64,000 nucleotides of DNA, from NCBI RefSeq assembly GCF_900095855.1, contig NZ_FMIY01000002.1, forward strand, positions 177,322-241,321, read 5' to 3'. This document shows positions 45,416-52,845 of the stretch, in pieces; positions within the stretch are counted from its first letter, which is position 1, and every line of letters begins with the position of its first letter. The stretch comes from Megasphaera coli (GTDB lineage Bacteria; Bacillota; Negativicutes; Veillonellales; Megasphaeraceae). Below the pieces are notes generated by a model. It was given only the letters and a program-made list of their open reading frames with translations, was not told the DNA's origin and did not search any database. The translations under genes were made by a program, and so were the position numbers.

Positions 45416-46207
45416 ATGGGAAAAGAGGCATTTCGGTGGAATGGGAATTTATACGCTGCGGCCAATAAGGTACAAGCTGAAGTGGGAGAACGACTGATAA
45501 GCAGGACCCCTTTTAGTGAGGCTGCTCTTGTTTTGGATGTCGGCTGCGGAAGCGGAAATCTGACGTTTAAAATCGGAGCAAAGGTACCGAAGGGAAGGGT
45601 CACGGCTATCGACCTTTCAGAGTCAATGATCCGAAAGTGTAAGTCGGAACTTGCAGTATATCATATGCAAAATGTTGAATTTGAAGTACGCGGAATCCAT
45701 GAAATTACTGATGAAGATATTTTTGATATAGTTTTTTCCAATTCGGTCCTTCATTGGATAACGGATATACAGGATGCAATCGACAGATTCTATAGAGCCT
45801 TGAAAAGCAAGGGCGTTCTCAGTGTTCAATTTCCGCTGCTCAATGCCGGTCATCCCCTTATTGCCTATGCAGAGCGTGCAATCAAAGAGTTAGGTGTACA
45901 GGAGTATTACAAAAATTGGCGGTTCCCATGGTATGTTCCGAAAAGTGCGGCTTCTTTTTCTCGTGTATTGACACAAGCCGGATTTATGGATGTCCGTGTT
46001 ATACCGGAATCAAACCGGTGTGTATTTGATTCGCCTGAAGAGGTATACCGGCATTTTATTTCGGTTGGATTGGAATTATATGCCGCCCGGTTTCCCGGTG
46101 AAATGAGGGATATGTTTATGGACTCGGTGAAGCAAAACATCCAACGTGATTTTCCGCAAGCCGTTACGTTAAAATATGAGCGGTTGTTTGCTTCAGGAAA
46201 AAAATGA
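45416..46207 (+). CDS. Class I SAM-dependent methyltransferase (trans-aconitate methyltransferase-like)
   Basis: A 263-residue methyltransferase. Motif I is VLDVGCGSGNLTFKIG, motif II/post-I has RVTAIDLSESMIRKCKSE, and the motif IV region has DIFDIVFSNSVLHWITD. This last block resembles the Tam/BioC group (VFSNAALHW). The C-terminal part (RFPWYVPKSAASFSRVLTQAGF) also fits that group. The substrate is probably a small carboxylic acid but is not determined. The frame is open far upstream through comF, but ATG 45416, behind GGAAGGGAAG, gives the right domain start. Base composition is more AT-rich than comF and begins the accessory stretch. Confidence 0.8.
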   Translation: MGKEAFRWNGNLYAAANKVQAEVGERLISRTPFSEAALVLDVGCGSGNLTFKIGAKVPKGRVTAIDLSESMIRKCKSELAVYHMQNVEFEVRGIHEITDEDIFDIVFSNSVLHWITDIQDAIDRFYRALKSKGVLSVQFPLLNAGHPLIAYAERAIKELGVQEYYKNWRFPWYVPKSAASFSRVLTQAGFMDVRVIPESNRCVFDSPEEVYRHFISVGLELYAARFPGEMRDMFMDSVKQNIQRDFPQAVTLKYERLFASGKK

Positions 46208-46261
46208 CACAGTGCTTCAATTTCAATAAATAATGACAGATCTCTGAATAGACAACACAGA

Positions 46262-46307
46262 GGGGCTGTAACAGAATAACTGAAAAACGTCATTCTGTTA
46301 CAGCCCC
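46262..46307. repeat. Perfect 16-bp inverted repeat, possible dispersed element
   Basis: GGGGCTGTAACAGAAT (46262-46277) and its exact reverse complement (46292-46307) with a 14-base loop. No T-run follows on either side, so it is not an ordinary terminator. The motif looks like a dispersed intergenic repeat or transposon end. Confidence 0.55.
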
Positions 46308-46344
46308 CATCGGGAGTTACCCCAACATTTGCAAAAGAGCTTAA

Positions 46345-46372
46345 AAAAAGACCCGACGCATCGAGTCTTTTT
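46345..46372. terminator. Bidirectional terminator downstream of the Abi gene
   Basis: AAAAAGACCCG pairs with CGAGTCTTTTT (one mismatch), with a 6-base loop. A/T runs on both sides allow use by the methyltransferase transcript and by the Abi gene on the minus strand. Confidence 0.65.
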
Positions 46373-46452
46373 AGGGCTTAGTCCGAAGACACGAGCCACT
46401 TTCTCCAATATTATTGTAGCAAATCAGCCAAAAGAAAGCAAGAAAATTATAG

Positions 46453-47424
46453 TCATGATTTTGTGAGGAATACTTTTAATGATTCCATATTCTGTCGTGT
46501 CCCTGAGCCAAGAATTTGATTCCAAACAGAGACCGAAATTTGTTGTCGTAACAGCTCTTTACTGGTATTATATCTGGATATCAGTTGTTTACATTCCGTC
46601 TTTGTTACCTGCATTTTTCTTAATACATAGAGAATAAGAATGATATAGGCATCAATATATTGAAAATCTATTTGCTGAACGGAGGTTTCTCTTTGCAAGA
46701 GATTGATAAGACGCGGGCTTATTCGATTAGAACGAAAACGGGCATCAAAGATTACATTATTATGGGCGATGGCATTTCGGAGATCCTTGATAGTAAAAAT
46801 AATATCTTTAGTCAGCTTACCATCCGCATCCAAATTTGACGGTAGACCTAATAATTTGGATGTATATAGCTTAACATCTTTGTTGCAACACCAAAAAAAG
46901 GTACCAAAATCTCCAAGTGTCATGGACTCGAATATAGCCCAGATAGGAATTTCCCGGTCTTTATTAAAGAAGTGATTAACAATTTGATTACGTTGATTAT
47001 AGTCACGCTTCAGTGTGCTGTTAATAGAGCCGCGTAACGATATTCGTTTAGTGAAAAAACGTTTATATTCCTGACTGCCTGCTGCAAATGTTTTATAATA
47101 GGTCAACGAATGATTAAAGATATCATTGATATTTTCAGATTTGCTGTCGGCAAGGATGGCCTCAATTACGTAGCTTTTGAGTGCTGTCTCAATAAACATG
47201 ACCTTTGAATACAGTAATGATTTCAAATGCATATCAAAATTGTTTATAGCAAGGAGTTCATCAAAAGTTCGAAATGGTATCTTGTTTTGTGGGGTACGGA
47301 TGAAACGATATCCTTTGTATCCATGATAGTAGCCAAGATTTCGTAGAGCATGAACCTGACTGCTTTTTATGGATATTTTATGAGTATTGCGCAAGTAGCG
47401 CATCATTTGTCTTATGGTTAACAT
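46453..47424 (-). CDS. Abi-family abortive infection protein (Abi_2/AbiD-F type)
   Basis: A 323-residue protein of the Abi_2 family, associated with abortive phage infection in lactococci. The family start LTIRQMMRYLRNTHKISI, the helix LLYSKVMFIETALKSYVIEAI and the motif RNAIAHN are visible. RNAIAH (Arg216-His221) is an RX4H pattern as in HEPN ribonucleases, so RNA cleavage is a plausible mechanism. CAT at 47422-47424 marks the start chosen; GAGAGGA lies 8 bases upstream. The longer frame to 47559 adds residues without homology. It is AT-richer than the core genes, next to an IS element, and stands alone. The target phage is unknown. Confidence 0.8.
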   Translation of the reverse strand: MLTIRQMMRYLRNTHKISIKSSQVHALRNLGYYHGYKGYRFIRTPQNKIPFRTFDELLAINNFDMHLKSLLYSKVMFIETALKSYVIEAILADSKSENINDIFNHSLTYYKTFAAGSQEYKRFFTKRISLRGSINSTLKRDYNQRNQIVNHFFNKDREIPIWAIFESMTLGDFGTFFWCCNKDVKLYTSKLLGLPSNLDADGKLTKDIIFTIKDLRNAIAHNNVIFDARFRSNRISPRLINLLQRETSVQQIDFQYIDAYIILILYVLRKMQVTKTECKQLISRYNTSKELLRQQISVSVWNQILGSGTRQNMESLKVFLTKS

Positions 47425-47733
47425 CGGTATAAATCCTCTCGGTTTTCTTTTATTATAGCATTTGAGATAGGGGATGAATAGAATAATAAAGGATATAGCA
47501 CAAATGGCGGTGGGATAAAATCTCTGCTTCCCTTTTGCCTGTGACCACCGCCCCCTCAAATGTGAAAAATGCGAAATTCATAAAGGGAGATATCACGCAG
47601 ATTTTGAATTGAATACTCCATAGCTCCAGGCATCATACCCGGGGCTTATTTTTTCGCCTGAGAGAAGGAAATATTTTTATGAATGATTGCGGAGACAGCA
47701 GATAAAAACTGGGTTGTAGGATCCGAAAATCAT
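47425..47733. other. Intergenic stretch between the Abi gene and the IS200 element
   Basis: About 310 bases without a supportable gene. On the minus strand TGCTATAAT near 47458 reads as an extended -10 promoter for the Abi gene. GGCGGTGG (47506-47513) and CCACCGCC (47545-47552) form an 8-bp inverted repeat. A short hairpin with a T6 run (47622-47654) looks like a leftover terminator. Confidence 0.4.
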
Positions 47734-47843
47734 AACCACCAGTAGAACTGGTGGTTTGCTCTGACCCTATAAGGGTCTATCTCTTGTGGTAGCACCAAAT
47801 GGTGCACTGAATAAAATCCGGCAATCACATCACTGTTACTGGC

Positions 47844-47870
47844 AGCCCCCTACTCGGGGGCTCTTTCTTT
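47844..47870 (+). terminator. Terminator inside the IS element, facing incoming transcription
   Basis: AGCCCCC (47844-47850) pairs with GGGGGCT (47856-47862), followed by TCTTTCTTT. It works on the plus strand, opposite to tnpA, and would block outside transcripts from running antisense through the transposase gene. Confidence 0.55.
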
Positions 47871-47876
47871 GCCTAC

Positions 47877-48341
47877 TTATGTACTCTTCTTACCCGTAAA
47901 CGGGTCTACATACTCTTTGAAATCCAACGTGTCCTGTGCTATATCTTCCTGTAGTTGTTGTCGGATATAGGTTTTTATCGCACCTTCGTATTTTCCTACC
48001 GTGTCCACATAGTACCCCCGACACCAGAAATGTCTATTGCCATACTTATATTTTAAGTTTGCATGTTTATCAAATATCATTAAACTGCTCTTACTTTTTA
48101 GATATCCCATGAAACCGGATACACTTAGATGTGGTGGTATTGTCACCAGCATGTGGATATGATCCGGACAACATTCTGCTTCCAGTATTTCTACGTGCTT
48201 CCGGGTGCACAACTCCCGCAATATTTTTCCTATATCCACCTTTATGGTCCCATATATAGCTTGTCTTCTATATTTGGGCGCAAATACGATATGGTATTTG
48301 CATCTCCATTTACTGTGTGATAAGCTTTGTACGTCATTCAT
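47877..48341 (-). CDS. tnpA: IS200/IS605 family transposase TnpA
   Basis: A 154-residue HUH single-strand transposase (Y1). The start SKWRCKYHIVFAPKYRRQ is the IS200 hallmark. The metal-binding HUH motif is HIH (61-63) in CCPDHIHMLVTIPP, and the nucleophile is probably Tyr125 in AIKTYIRQQ. Length is that of complete IS200 transposases and no frame break is seen, so the element may be active. A strong AGGAGGTTC lies 8 bases before the start but can be locked in a hairpin with an upstream complementary sequence. Confidence 0.95.
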   Translation of the reverse strand: MNDVQSLSHSKWRCKYHIVFAPKYRRQAIYGTIKVDIGKILRELCTRKHVEILEAECCPDHIHMLVTIPPHLSVSGFMGYLKSKSSLMIFDKHANLKYKYGNRHFWCRGYYVDTVGKYEGAIKTYIRQQLQEDIAQDTLDFKEYVDPFTGKKST

Positions 48342-48348
48342 TGACAGT

Positions 48349-48410
48349 GAACCTCCTATCCGTTATGTGATGTGGTTGCCAGACCATCATCATTCTAACA
48401 CAGGAGGTTC
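48349..48410 (-). promoter_or_regulatory. Ribosome-binding-site sequestering structure of tnpA
   Basis: The tnpA Shine-Dalgarno sequence (minus strand AGGAGGTTC, 48349-48357) is exactly complementary to bases 48402-48410. In the transcript this would form a 9-bp stem that hides the site and keeps transposase levels low. A comparable 5' leader structure is known for Salmonella IS200. Confidence 0.6.
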
Positions 48411-48485
48411 CTTCTTTTTCTATAAGTATTTTTTTGCTCCCCCAGTAAACTGGGGGTTTAGTCATGCCTGTTCGGCGCCAAACAC

Positions 48486-48519
48486 AAAGACCGCATTTCA
48501 CTTGGGAAACGCGGTCTTT
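48486..48519. terminator. Terminator hairpin at the antitoxin stop
   Basis: AAAGACCGC pairs with GCGGTCTTT, extended inward by four more pairs, 34 bases in all. It overlaps the antitoxin stop and lies about 30 bases from the IS200 end. Confidence 0.6.
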
Positions 48520-48787
48520 AATCATTAAGAGCAGTCATCACTTCAGCGACGGAATCATATGTGCGGCTGAGGTTGCGATGGTGATTTATATCATCCAAGA
48601 TACGAAGTGTTTCTTCATTATTTGTATACAATCGCATATCAAAAGGAAGTCCGCCATGACGTACTACCGTTTTTAAAAATATAGTAATAGCTGTAGATGT
48701 AGGTAGGCCTAATTCAGAGAAAATGTGTTCTGCCTGTGTTTTTAAATCTGCGTCGACACGAAGATTCAGATTTTTTGTTGTAGCCAT
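48518..48787 (-). CDS. Orphan type II antitoxin of the RelB/DinJ family
   Basis: An 89-residue ribbon-helix-helix antitoxin. The opening TTKNLNLRVDADLKTQAEHIFSELGLPTSTAITIFLKTVVRHGGLPFDM is the RelB/DinJ N-terminal domain almost in full; the C-terminal ~30 residues would wrap a RelE/YafQ toxin. No toxin gene follows: a terminator and then the IS200 element lie directly downstream. CAT at 48785-48787 is the start, with AAAGGAG upstream; earlier in-frame Met codons add no homology. It may be an antitoxin stranded when its toxin was lost, or an anti-addiction gene. Confidence 0.88.
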   Translation of the reverse strand: MATTKNLNLRVDADLKTQAEHIFSELGLPTSTAITIFLKTVVRHGGLPFDMRLYTNNEETLRILDDINHHRNLSRTYDSVAEVMTALND

Positions 48788-48857
48788 ATGAATCAACTCC
48801 TTTAAGATTATTATAAGGCAAAGCAACGTAAGTATAAAGGAGTTTTCGTTACAAAGC

Positions 48858-49463
48858 CTATTTTCCCAATGTGTCGATAAAGGCTTTGATTATTTCCGGG
48901 TCGAAGAGGAGGCCCGAGGCGCTGAAGAGCTCGCGAACGGCCTGTTGCTTCGTTTTTGCCCAGAAATCGGCGGACGGATTGATAATGGCGTCATAGTAAT
49001 CGGCAACGGCGATGATACGTGCACCGAAGGGAATATTGGCGCCGCGCAGATGTTTCGGATAGCCCGAGCCGTCCCACCGTTCGTGGTGATGAACGATGTA
49101 AGGGATGATGTCGTGACAGCAGGGGATATTTTCCAGCATGTTGCCGCCCGCTTCGGCATGGCGGCGGTAGGCGGCTTTTTCCGTACGGTTCAAATAAGGA
49201 GCTTTCGCAAGAAGTGTGCCTGAAAGGGTCACTTTGCCGATATCATGTAAGAGCGAGGCGTATTTTATGAGTTCTATTTCGCTTTTCGGCAAGCCCAGCT
49301 TGGCTGCAATGCTGACGCTGTAATTGGTAACCTGCAGGGAATGTCTGTATAAGCGTTGGCTCTTCATTTGTAAAAACGAGACAAGCCACGCCGTTATAGA
49401 TTCTAGCGATTCTTTTTCATCAAAGCCCATGCCGGCCGCTTGTTTTAACGATAACATGTACAT
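48858..49463 (-). CDS. Stand-alone HD-GYP domain protein (probable cyclic-di-nucleotide phosphodiesterase)
   Basis: A ~201-residue HD-GYP domain with no sensor domain. The metal-site HD is in LLHDIGKV, the second block is HHHERWDGSGYPKHL with the GYP signature, and the later Asp is in IIAVADYYDAI. Such enzymes degrade c-di-GMP or related cyclic dinucleotides. The N-terminal ~35 residues form a short helix only. ATG 49463 is used; a TTG 9 bases earlier is possible but sits almost on the AAAGG sequence. It follows the AdoMetDC-like gene by 32 bases and no terminator lies between, so the two are probably co-transcribed. Confidence 0.88.
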   Translation of the reverse strand: MYMLSLKQAAGMGFDEKESLESITAWLVSFLQMKSQRLYRHSLQVTNYSVSIAAKLGLPKSEIELIKYASLLHDIGKVTLSGTLLAKAPYLNRTEKAAYRRHAEAGGNMLENIPCCHDIIPYIVHHHERWDGSGYPKHLRGANIPFGARIIAVADYYDAIINPSADFWAKTKQQAVRELFSASGLLFDPEIIKAFIDTLGK

Positions 49464-49495
49464 AAGGGGCAAAACCTTTCTGCTTTTTAACGAAA

Positions 49496-49981
49496 TTACT
49501 GATTCGGCGGCCGTTTCGGGTGCCGCAGGATGTTGATCATTTTGGCGCTCGTCCGCTTGATGCGGGCGCCCGTGTTCTTCATACGCCGTACGGTCGTAAT
49601 CTTGGATTTTCTCTTCGGACGCATGTCGCGGATAGAGCCGAAGTCGCCGCGGCGTACGCTGGTCGCCTTAATGCGATCGGATTTGAAGGCTGTTTTAAAA
49701 ATACCCATAATGCGGCTTAAATGAAGATCCGCCGAGAAACTGTAAATATCTACGGCCGCATAAGACAAAACGGGGTAGTAATGTATGCAAATATGTGTAT
49801 TGCCCGTAAAGGCGAGGCCCGTCATTTCATCGGGTGATTGAAAAAAATTGATTTCTTCTATAGCAATGCCTATACAGGCAAAGGCATTTTCCAAGGACGG
49901 CCGCAGGTCTTCCGGCATGGTGACGGCAAGGCGACAGTTATAAAAATCAATGAGCAAATGCTTTCCTAAGGTATTATTCAT
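49496..49981 (-). CDS. AdoMet decarboxylase-like protein lacking the pyruvoyl serine, with basic tail
   Basis: A 161-residue protein whose first ~110 residues align with prokaryotic S-adenosylmethionine decarboxylase (SpeD/SpeH): start LGKHLLIDFYNC, middle MTGLAFTGNTHICIHYYP, then YAAVDIYSFSADL. In active enzymes the ESH motif is cut before Ser, which becomes the pyruvoyl group; here it is Asn61-Thr62-His63. The proton-donor Cys of the TCGD motif is also absent (YSFSAD). The last ~45 residues are extremely basic (RPKRKSK, RIKRTSAK), unlike SpeD. It is therefore probably not a decarboxylase. ATG 49981 is chosen because the ATG at 50014 lies inside the promoter -10 box. Confidence 0.82.
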   Translation of the reverse strand: MNNTLGKHLLIDFYNCRLAVTMPEDLRPSLENAFACIGIAIEEINFFQSPDEMTGLAFTGNTHICIHYYPVLSYAAVDIYSFSADLHLSRIMGIFKTAFKSDRIKATSVRRGDFGSIRDMRPKRKSKITTVRRMKNTGARIKRTSAKMINILRHPKRPPNQ

Positions 49982-50012: not shown

Positions 50013-50041
50013 ATTATATAATGTTTCCTTTTCCTTGTAAA
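50013..50041 (-). promoter_or_regulatory. Promoter of the AdoMetDC-like/HD-GYP operon
   Basis: On the minus strand, TTTACA (50036-50041), a 17-base spacer and TATAAT (50013-50018). Transcription would start near 50006, which rules out the ATG at 50014 and leaves a leader of about 25 bases before ATG 49981. Confidence 0.75.
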
Positions 50042-50190: not shown

Positions 50191-52770
50191 TTACGCCGAC
50201 ACGGGTGTGAAGGTAAAGTCCGTGCCCGAGTAATCAATACGGACGGTTTGGCCTTCCCGCACGGCGCCGCTGATAATGTCGCGGCTCAAGGCTGTTTCTA
50301 CAGTGTGTGTAATAAGGCGGCGCAGAGGACGGGCACCGAACTGCGGTTCGTATCCCTTTTCCGCCAGGGCATGCAGGGCTTCGTCCGACCAGGTCAGGCT
50401 GATATTCATCTGCTTTTGCAGGCGCGCGCCGAGGTTTTTGAGGAGAATCCCGGCAATTTCCAGCACCTGTTCCCGCTGCAGCGCCTTGAAGACGACAATA
50501 TCGTCAATACGGTTGAGAAATTCCGGGCGGAAGTAGTCTTTAAGGATGCGGCGTACCGCTTTTTCCGCTTCGCCGAAGTCCGTCGTTTCAAGGATTTCAT
50601 GGGAGCCCAGGTTGCTCGTCATGATGATGACCGTGTTCTTGAAGTTGACGACGCGGCCCTTGCCGTCCGTCAGGCGGCCGTCATCGAGGATCTGCAGAAG
50701 CACGTTGAAAATATCGGGATGGGCCTTTTCGATTTCATCGAGGAGAATGACGCTGTACGGTCTGCGCCGTACGGCTTCGGTGAGCTGACCGCCTTCATCG
50801 TAGCCGACGTATCCCGGAGGCGCCCCGATAAGGCGGGAGACCGTGTGCTTTTCCATATATTCGCTCATGTCGATGCGGATGATGTTCCGTTCATCGTCAA
50901 AAAGCGATTCGGCGAGGGCTTTGGCCAGTTCCGTCTTGCCGACGCCTGTCGGGCCGAGGAAGATGAACGAGCCGATCGGGCGGTTCGGATCTTTTATGCC
51001 CGCGCGGGCGCGGATGACCGCGTCGCTGACGACCTGTACCGCTTCATCCTGACCGATGACCCGTTCATGAAGCGTATCGTCCAGGTGGAGAAGCTTTTCC
51101 CGTTCACCGGTCATCATCTTTGTCACGGGAATGCCCGTCCAACGGCTGACGACTTGGGCAATGTCTTCTTCGCTCACTTCCTCCTTGAGAAGGTGGCTGT
51201 CGCTTTCCTTGGAAAGCGCTTCTTCCTGTTCGGCCAACTGCTGCTGTAATTGCGGCAGCTTGCCGTATTTCAATTCCGATGCCTTGGCCAAATCATACTC
51301 CCGTTCGGCTTTTTCCATTTGGTGGCGCACATCATCCAGTTCCTTCTTCAAGGCCTGAGTCCGCAAGATGGCCTGCTTTTCCTTATCCCAACGGGCTTTT
51401 AGCGTTTCCTCTTCGCCTTGAAGCTCCCTCTTGGCATCGACGATTTTTGCCAGCCGTTCCTTGGAGGCATCGTCCGTTTCCTTATTGAGGGATTGTTCTT
51501 CTATTTCAAGCTGCATGATCTTATGGCGTACTTCATCAAGCGGTGCCGGCATAGATTCGATTTCCGTGCGGAGCTTTGCGGCCGCTTCGTCGACAAGGTC
51601 GATTGCCTTGTCCGGCAGGAACCGGTCCGAAATATAGCGATCCGAAAGAACGGCGGCCGCTACCATGGCGTTGTCGCGAATACGGACGCCGTGGTGCACT
51701 TCATAGCGTTCCTTGAGGCCGCGAAGAATGGTAATCGTATCTTCCACGGACGGCTGGTTGACCATGACCGGCTGGAAGCGGCGTTCCAAGGCGGCGTCTT
51801 TTTCAATGTACTTCTGATATTCATTCAGCGTCGTCGCACCGATACAACGCAGTTCGCCGCGGGCAAGCATGGGTTTTAACAGATTGCCCGCATCCATGGA
51901 GCCTTCAGATGCGCCGGCGCCGACAACCGTATGGATTTCGTCGATAAAGAGGAGAATTTGCCCCTCCGACTTGGCGATTTCATTTAAAACCGACTTCAGC
52001 CGTTCTTCAAATTCACCGCGGTACTTGGCACCGGCAATAAGGGAACCCATGTCGAGAGAGTAGAGCGTCTTGTTTTTTAACGATTCCGGTACGTCGCCGG
52101 CAATGATGCGGCTTGCCAGTCCTTCGACGATGGCCGTCTTGCCGACACCCGGTTCGCCGATGAGGACCGGGTTGTTTTTGGTGCGGCGCGAGAGAATTTC
52201 TACGGTACGGCGAATTTCGTCATCTCTGCCGATGACGGGGTCGAGCTTGCCTTTGCGGGCCGCCGCCGTCAGGTCGCGGCCATATTTTTCCAGGGCCTTG
52301 TAATTGCCTTCCGGGTCGTCCGACGAAACGGACTGCTTGCGGTTGGCCTTAACCGCGCTGAGGATTTTGTCGGCGTGGAGGCCGAATTGGCTGCACACGT
52401 CCTGAATTTCTTTGTCGCCTCCTTCGACGATGCCCAAGAGCAGGTGTTCCGTGCTGATGTAGTCATCGCCCATGGCTTCAGCGCGCTGCTGAGCTTTGCC
52501 GATAATGCGCACCGCTTCCGTCGACATGGCGAGACGGCTTTGTCCCTGAACGGAAGGAATTTTTTTCAAAAGCTGTTCCAGCTTAGCCCGCAGCAAGGGC
52601 AGGTCGGTTTTGCAATCGTCAAAGACCGTGGCAAGAAGCCCTTCCGGCTCCTTCGTTAGACCGAGAAGCAAGTGGACTGCCGTAATTTCCTGATGATAAT
52701 GAAGGGCAGCCAATTGCTGCGCTTCCTGGAATACTTCCATAACCTTTTGCGTATATTTTTCATTTTCCAT
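50191..52770 (-). CDS. clpB: ATP-dependent chaperone ClpB
   Basis: An 859-residue ClpB disaggregase, which pulls apart aggregated proteins together with DnaK. The N-terminal Clp repeats are at residues 1-145. The first AAA+ domain has Walker [17 protein letters not shown] and Walker [16 protein letters not shown]. The coiled-coil middle domain (~400-525) distinguishes ClpB from ClpA/C. The second AAA+ domain has [17 protein letters not shown] and [12 protein letters not shown], and a C-terminal small domain closes the protein. The second ATG (52770) is preferred: AAAGGAGG is 8 bases from it but only 2 from the first. It stands alone, with no CIRCE upstream. Confidence 0.95.
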
Positions 52771-52845
52771 TGTCATGACCTCCTTTATCTGTCAGTGTAA
52801 AGGAAAATATCATAGTCAGTCGTATTTCTTATAACTACAGCTTTT

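Follow-up and report, generated by a model that had tools for sequence, protein, structure and literature searches.

The Negativicutes possess a family of short proteins that combine the fold of adenosylmethionine decarboxylase (AdoMetDC or SpeD) with a basic C-terminal tail, and these proteins can be regarded with high confidence as pseudoenzymes. The member from Megasphaera coli is encoded on the minus strand of a 64,000-nucleotide stretch of the genome, hereafter the window. The gene lies at 49499..49981, with the ATG at 49981, the last codon at 49499-49501 and the stop codon at 49496-49498, and its predicted product is 161 amino acids long. The family appears to be specific to the Negativicutes and nearly universal in them, and is filed here as a new, class-wide family of bacterial SpeD pseudoenzymes descended from the known class 1b SpeD. 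No published bacterial SpeD pseudoenzyme was found in the literature searched, which had most subscription journals outside it.

Fold and catalytic residues of the window protein

The window protein consists of one 110-residue domain followed by the tail. Residues 8-112 match the Pfam family AdoMet_dc (PF02675) with 66 bits (E 4.5e-18), and the sequence matches in the PDB are the AdoMetDCs of T. maritima and A. aeolicus. Residues 6-111 form a confident SpeD fold in the AlphaFold model, mostly with pLDDT >90, and the best Foldseek match to this model is the non-processing S63A mutant of T. maritima AdoMetDC (1tmi, E 4.4e-9). These matches agree with the original prediction that the SpeD-like domain is well kept. 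The protein shares with class 1b SpeD (T. maritima 1TLU/1TMI, PF02675, TIGR03330) the fold, the layout of the motifs, His67, the Tyr-Pro, the AVD strand and the C-terminal RG, and the common descent of the two is clear. After AdoMetDC, the best Foldseek matches include the kinetochore proteins CENP-N and Iml3, at a weak TM of 0.36-0.40. These matches give a weak hint that the SpeD fold may recur in chromatin-associated proteins, and at such TM values they were not accepted as evidence of nucleic-acid binding.

The window protein differs from class 1b SpeD in that it lacks both the pyruvoyl serine and the catalytic cysteine, and in that it scores 54.7 bits against the NCBIfam SpeD equivalog TIGR03330, below the cut-off of 75.65. 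Ser63, His68 and Cys83 of T. maritima SpeD are essential for self-processing (PMC10407285). In the alignment, the pyruvoyl-forming Ser63 corresponds to Thr62 (codon 49796..49798, minus strand), the catalytic His68 to His67 (49781..49783, minus strand) and the catalytic Cys83 to Phe82 (49736..49738, minus strand). Two of the three self-processing residues, Ser and Cys, are therefore gone and His67 is kept. The original prediction had read the ESH motif as NTH and had noted that the cysteine of TCGD is missing, and both readings were correct. It had also allowed for a sequencing error at the Thr62 codon, whose coordinates it had given correctly, and had proposed a search for homologues with the same motif. 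That search found NTH in Megasphaera micronuciformis (L033) and Anaeroglobus geminatus (L034), two independently sequenced sisters, which excludes such an error.

Loss of catalytic residues across the Negativicutes

Matches to the family profile occur in 193 of 200 Negativicutes genomes (profile matches are counted, including a few of the lowest-scoring ones that were not individually inspected), in 164 of the 167 genomes of good quality and in 78 of 81 genera. Named members include Veillonella, Megasphaera, Dialister, Negativicoccus and Allisonella, which identify the class as Negativicutes. An AdoMet_dc protein is present in each of the 60 genomes in the search of relatives, and most of these genomes have two, a short tailed protein and a long E. 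coli-type SpeD. The matches that were read from outside the class are ordinary, tail-less SpeD proteins of about 125 amino acids with ESH and TCG. Three well-assembled genomes of one family (G368, G441 and G489 of f138) have no AdoMet_dc protein, unlike their close relatives, which shows that loss of the gene is possible. A phage origin was considered and rejected, as viral contigs hold only distant SpeD proteins that share 21-34% identity and match no further than residue 114.

The loss of catalytic residues that had been predicted for the window protein extends well beyond it, and in a refined form, since absence of the serine is class-wide and His67 is retained. The serine position of 157 distinct family sequences is occupied by Gly (70), Ser (45), Cys (15), Phe (11), Ala (9), Thr (6) or Val (1), so that Ser is absent from 112 of them, in a sample that is weighted towards Veillonellales and does not amount to an even census. 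His67 is kept in 153 of the 157 and the cysteine in 81. Only 25 keep both Ser and Cys, and these may still be active. The canonical SpeD comparison set, by comparison, has ESH and Cys in 20 of 20 sequences. A tree of 140 sequences, constructed with the serine column left out, requires 12 or more switches between Ser and another residue, as against one change at His63, three at His67, one at Asp78 and none at Arg111. A count of changes does not separate loss from gain. Since ESH..TC is common to canonical SpeD and the basal tailed copies, loss is the natural interpretation.

Copies without the serine are working genes under strong purifying selection. The median dN/dS in 56 pairs of such copies is 0.044, with values of 0.041 for the domain and 0.033 for the tail, as measured in pairs of at least 80% identity after distant pairs had been discarded as saturated.

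The basic tail, the promoter and the gene neighbourhood

The Lys/Arg-rich tail comprises residues 111-161 (49499..49651, minus strand) and has a computed pI of 12.0, compared with 6.0 for residues 1-110. Across the tailed family the median pI is 9.5, versus 5.5 for canonical SpeD. The conserved start of the tail, RGDFGSIRDMRPK from Arg111 (49613..49651, minus strand), is specific to the class. Arg111 is invariant (157 of 157), Pro122 is found in all 156 sequences in which the position is present, and position 119 is Asp in 145 and Glu in 11. The family pattern reads RGDFGS..DMKPK.K....RRV.NTGAKV. Asp12 is likewise invariant across the family where canonical SpeD has Glu, and the family differs from class 1b SpeD in the replacement of Glu11 by Asp in all tailed members, as well as in the tail of about 50 basic residues. 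The window protein carries these hallmarks, namely Asp12, Arg111, Pro122 and the basic RGDFG..DMKPK tail. A helix is predicted at residues 130-153 with low confidence (pLDDT about 57-63 in the AlphaFold model). Its amphipathicity is clear in Selenomonadaceae, where the best-window helical moment of 0.77-0.81 exceeds that of nearly all shuffles. The helix is weakly amphipathic in the window protein and in its Veillonella and Dialister relatives, and polar in the window protein and Veillonella.

In basal families (Sporomusaceae-like), an intact ESH..TC motif and a RGDFGSE.DMKPK.KVSIAPLRRVRNTGAKVL.FLSR.K tail occur in one protein. Because these basal members carry the same tail, their sequences show the specific tail to be older than the loss of the catalytic residues, which went later in several lineages. 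The original prediction of an added Lys/Arg-rich tail was thus right as to the tail, which is real and about 50 residues long with a pI of 12, and wrong in treating it as an addition to a dead enzyme. The same holds for the suggestion that an enzyme has become a non-catalytic protein. It is strongly supported by the repeated disappearance of Ser and Cys, by purifying selection on the dead copies and by retention in genomes lacking the spermidine pathway, but the order of events that it implied does not stand. A borrowed domain was considered as the source of the tail and rejected, since Pfam gives nothing for the tail beyond PF23874 at a non-significant E of 0.15, and no second protein in 149 genomes of the phylum has it. 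In that set, a profile of the tail alone recovered the family gene in four genomes, all Negativicutes, although only those four carried the family.

A sigma70-type promoter, TTTACA-N17-TATAAT, lies just upstream of the gene at 50013..50041 on the minus strand, matches the consensus at 11 of 12 positions and ends 31 bp from the ATG at 49981. It is kept in 12 of 12 Megasphaera-clade loci with nearly constant spacing. A TATAAT lies within 80 bp upstream of the family gene in 48 of 85 loci, against a background of 3.8%. The family gene has a dedicated and conserved promoter that is, as predicted from its sequence, strong. The list of open reading frames also holds a longer version with an ATG at 50014. 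This ATG is unlikely to be the real start, and the start at 49981 is supported because the alternative overlaps the -10 box of the conserved promoter. Codon adaptation of the gene, calculated against a reference limited to the ribosomal-protein operon and 48 window genes, is 0.755, compared with a ribosomal-protein mean of 0.758. This value is weak evidence for high expression because the ordinary E. coli-type SpeD of the same genome scores equally high (0.767).

The neighbourhood of the gene varies among lineages and indicates no single process. In the Megasphaera clade, the family gene lies between a gene for a Clp-type ATPase and an HD-domain gene. In the window these are a ClpB-type ATPase gene upstream (50191..52776, minus strand, the same strand as the pseudoenzyme gene), which serves as context only, and a gene for an HD_5, HD-GYP-like protein downstream (48861..49472, minus strand; PF13487, E 3e-36). 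Neighbours were named by reading their sequences, and family searches were confined to these two window genes. A divergent ctsR-mcsA-mcsB-clpC operon adjoins the family gene in many basal families and several Veillonellales, and in Acidaminococcaceae-like genomes the gene lies beside a recD2-like gene. The divergent ctsR operon suggested a CtsR operator as a general feature, but upstream of the family gene such an operator is absent in 84 of 85 loci and present in one. No polyamine genes occur among the recurrent neighbours that were identified. Genes for a flavodiiron protein, a FabK/nitronate-monooxygenase-like enzyme, rubrerythrin and carbonic anhydrase are found nearby in many basal families (e.g. 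L135-L164), and these neighbours would lend the locus an oxygen-stress flavour in strict anaerobes. A separate observation concerns a low-G+C stretch on the minus strand that adjoins the pseudoenzyme gene in the window (46453-48826; G+C of 39% over 46001-48000). It holds an Abi_2-type abortive-infection-like gene (46456-47424), an IS200-type Y1 transposase (47880-48341) and a RelB-type antitoxin (48521-48787), all on the minus strand, and looks like a small mobile or defence island.

Possible roles of the family

Besides the window gene, the M. coli genome encodes a separate E. coli-type SpeD (TIGR03331, 433 bits) and the spermidine synthase SpeE. In at least 17 genomes, two of which are single-contig assemblies (G417 and G447), the tailed copy is the sole AdoMet_dc protein and there is no PF01564 spermidine synthase. 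Those of these lone copies that were included in the tree have Gly in place of the serine, leaving out the copies of G374 and G017. This INDEPENDENCE from spermidine synthesis, in which the tailed copy persists without SpeE or another SpeD, means that the family is not generally a decarboxylase for spermidine, nor an activator of one. Its role is very likely independent of spermidine synthesis. In some other genomes (G001, G088, G330, G412 and others), a SpeE-like aminopropyltransferase (PF01564, E about 1e-56) is present and the tailed copy is the sole SpeD homologue. The tailed copies read from genomes of this type lack the serine, and the source of decarboxylated SAM in them is puzzling.

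The family protein very probably has some job other than SpeD catalysis. The best overall explanation, which is favoured without being secure, is that it is an unprocessed SpeD-fold pseudoenzyme of the Negativicutes, with the basic RGDFG..DMKPK tail serving to dock it on an anionic partner. A second, non-catalytic role would have been gained by an ancestral class 1b SpeD that already had the conserved basic tail. Catalysis could then have become dispensable, one reason being that most of these genomes have an E. coli-type SpeD for spermidine synthesis, and the serine, and often the cysteine, were lost many times while selection held the fold and the tail. The protein presumably remains a single uncut chain and acts as a binding protein. 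The charge of the tail fits contact with a polyanion without saying which one, and it is somewhat probable that a polyanion is bound. RNA or the ribosome is slightly favoured over DNA or an acidic membrane. That the partner is a nucleic acid, a proposal drawn from charge alone, is a tentative assignment. The old pocket might still bind a small cation or a nucleoside, and retention of binding to SAM or a polyamine in particular is conceivable but rather doubtful.

Alternatively, the family could retain a connection to catalysis. The dead copy might form a heterodimer with the active E. coli-type SpeD of its genome and so switch it on, a role suggested by the coexistence of dead and active copies in the window's genome and most of its relatives, and by the known dead AdoMetDC paralogue of trypanosomes that has such a role (PMC5201418). 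The prozyme, like the window protein, is a dead AdoMetDC relative living beside an active copy, a likeness that in the bacterial case is drawn from sequence. The prozyme, however, is a eukaryotic, two-domain class 2 protein and an obligate partner of AdoMetDC, and is reported to occur only in trypanosomatids (eLife 2016; PMC5201418), whereas the bacterial proteins have one domain and are maintained even where no active SpeD is present. The genomes that lack another SpeD homologue and a spermidine synthase, at least 17 in number, refute activation as a class-wide role. Moreover, the dead copy is a single-domain class 1b protein and its would-be partner belongs to class 1a, and the basic tail is left unexplained, so this role is improbable. 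Another option is that the protein is still a pyruvoyl enzyme, processed at Thr62 or another residue, or acting as an arginine or ornithine decarboxylase of the SpeDA/SpeDC type. In favour of this, the protein keeps the fold and His67, Ser and Cys are both present in 25 of 157 family members, and SpeD homologues with altered substrates are widespread (PMC10407285). Those homologues resemble the present family in having an altered role and in having been spotted through extra SpeD copies or a missing SpeE, but they are pyruvoyl enzymes that are expected to keep S63, H68 and C83 and that sit with polyamine genes (PMC10407285). In the tailed family, by contrast, Ser and Cys are lost and there is no clustering with polyamine genes. 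No pyruvoyl group can arise from the Gly, Ala, Phe or Val that orthologues have at the cofactor position, and the equivalent of Cys83 is Phe in the window protein, which makes continued pyruvoyl catalysis very improbable. Ordinary decay of a redundant SpeD into a pseudogene would account for the lost catalytic residues and for the E. coli-type SpeD in many genomes, but with a dN/dS of about 0.04 in dead copies, open frames, a conserved tail and promoter, and presence in 78 of 81 genera, it can hardly be entertained.

Other alternatives assign the protein to a particular cellular process. The basic tail helix could anchor it to a membrane surface of the diderm envelope as a peripheral protein, perhaps one tied to polyaminated peptidoglycan, as the Negativicutes tie their outer membrane to polyamine-modified peptidoglycan (PMC10628300) and the family is near-universal in this class. 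The high helical moment in Selenomonadaceae would suit such an anchor. The helix of the window protein and Veillonella, however, is polar and weakly amphipathic, no envelope gene lies nearby, and the link to polyaminated peptidoglycan, though tempting, is a coincidence of distribution only, so that this role is considered unlikely. That the protein serves Clp/McsB protein quality control, or the response to oxidative stress, as an adaptor or regulator is suggested by the adjoining ctsR-mcsA-mcsB-clpC genes of several Veillonellales and many basal families and by clpB in the Megasphaera clade. Given the near-absence of CtsR operators, the loss of adjacency in Selenomonadaceae and Acidaminococcaceae-like genomes, and an operon that is divergent with neighbours that differ, this is a quite improbable role. 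A more ambitious form of the docking explanation, for which the odds are long, would make the dead SpeD a class-defining regulator whose pocket senses a polyamine or SAM and whose basic tail acts on RNA, the ribosome or envelope assembly. If true, such a regulator would couple polyamine supply to translation or to polyaminated peptidoglycan.

On the pseudoenzyme reading, a near-universal and strongly selected gene of a whole class, whose members include Veillonella, Megasphaera and Dialister, common genera of the mouth, gut and vagina, encodes a dead SpeD. The family also bears on annotation. A Selenomonadaceae copy with Gly at position 62 (L081) scores 76.8 bits and passes the TIGR03330 adenosylmethionine decarboxylase cut-off of 75.65. 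Scores of this type are a likely source of wrong enzyme annotation, and predictions of polyamine pathways for such genomes can therefore be wrong. Finally, with intact-motif relatives and living members at each intermediate stage at hand, the route by which the enzyme became a non-enzyme can be tested directly.
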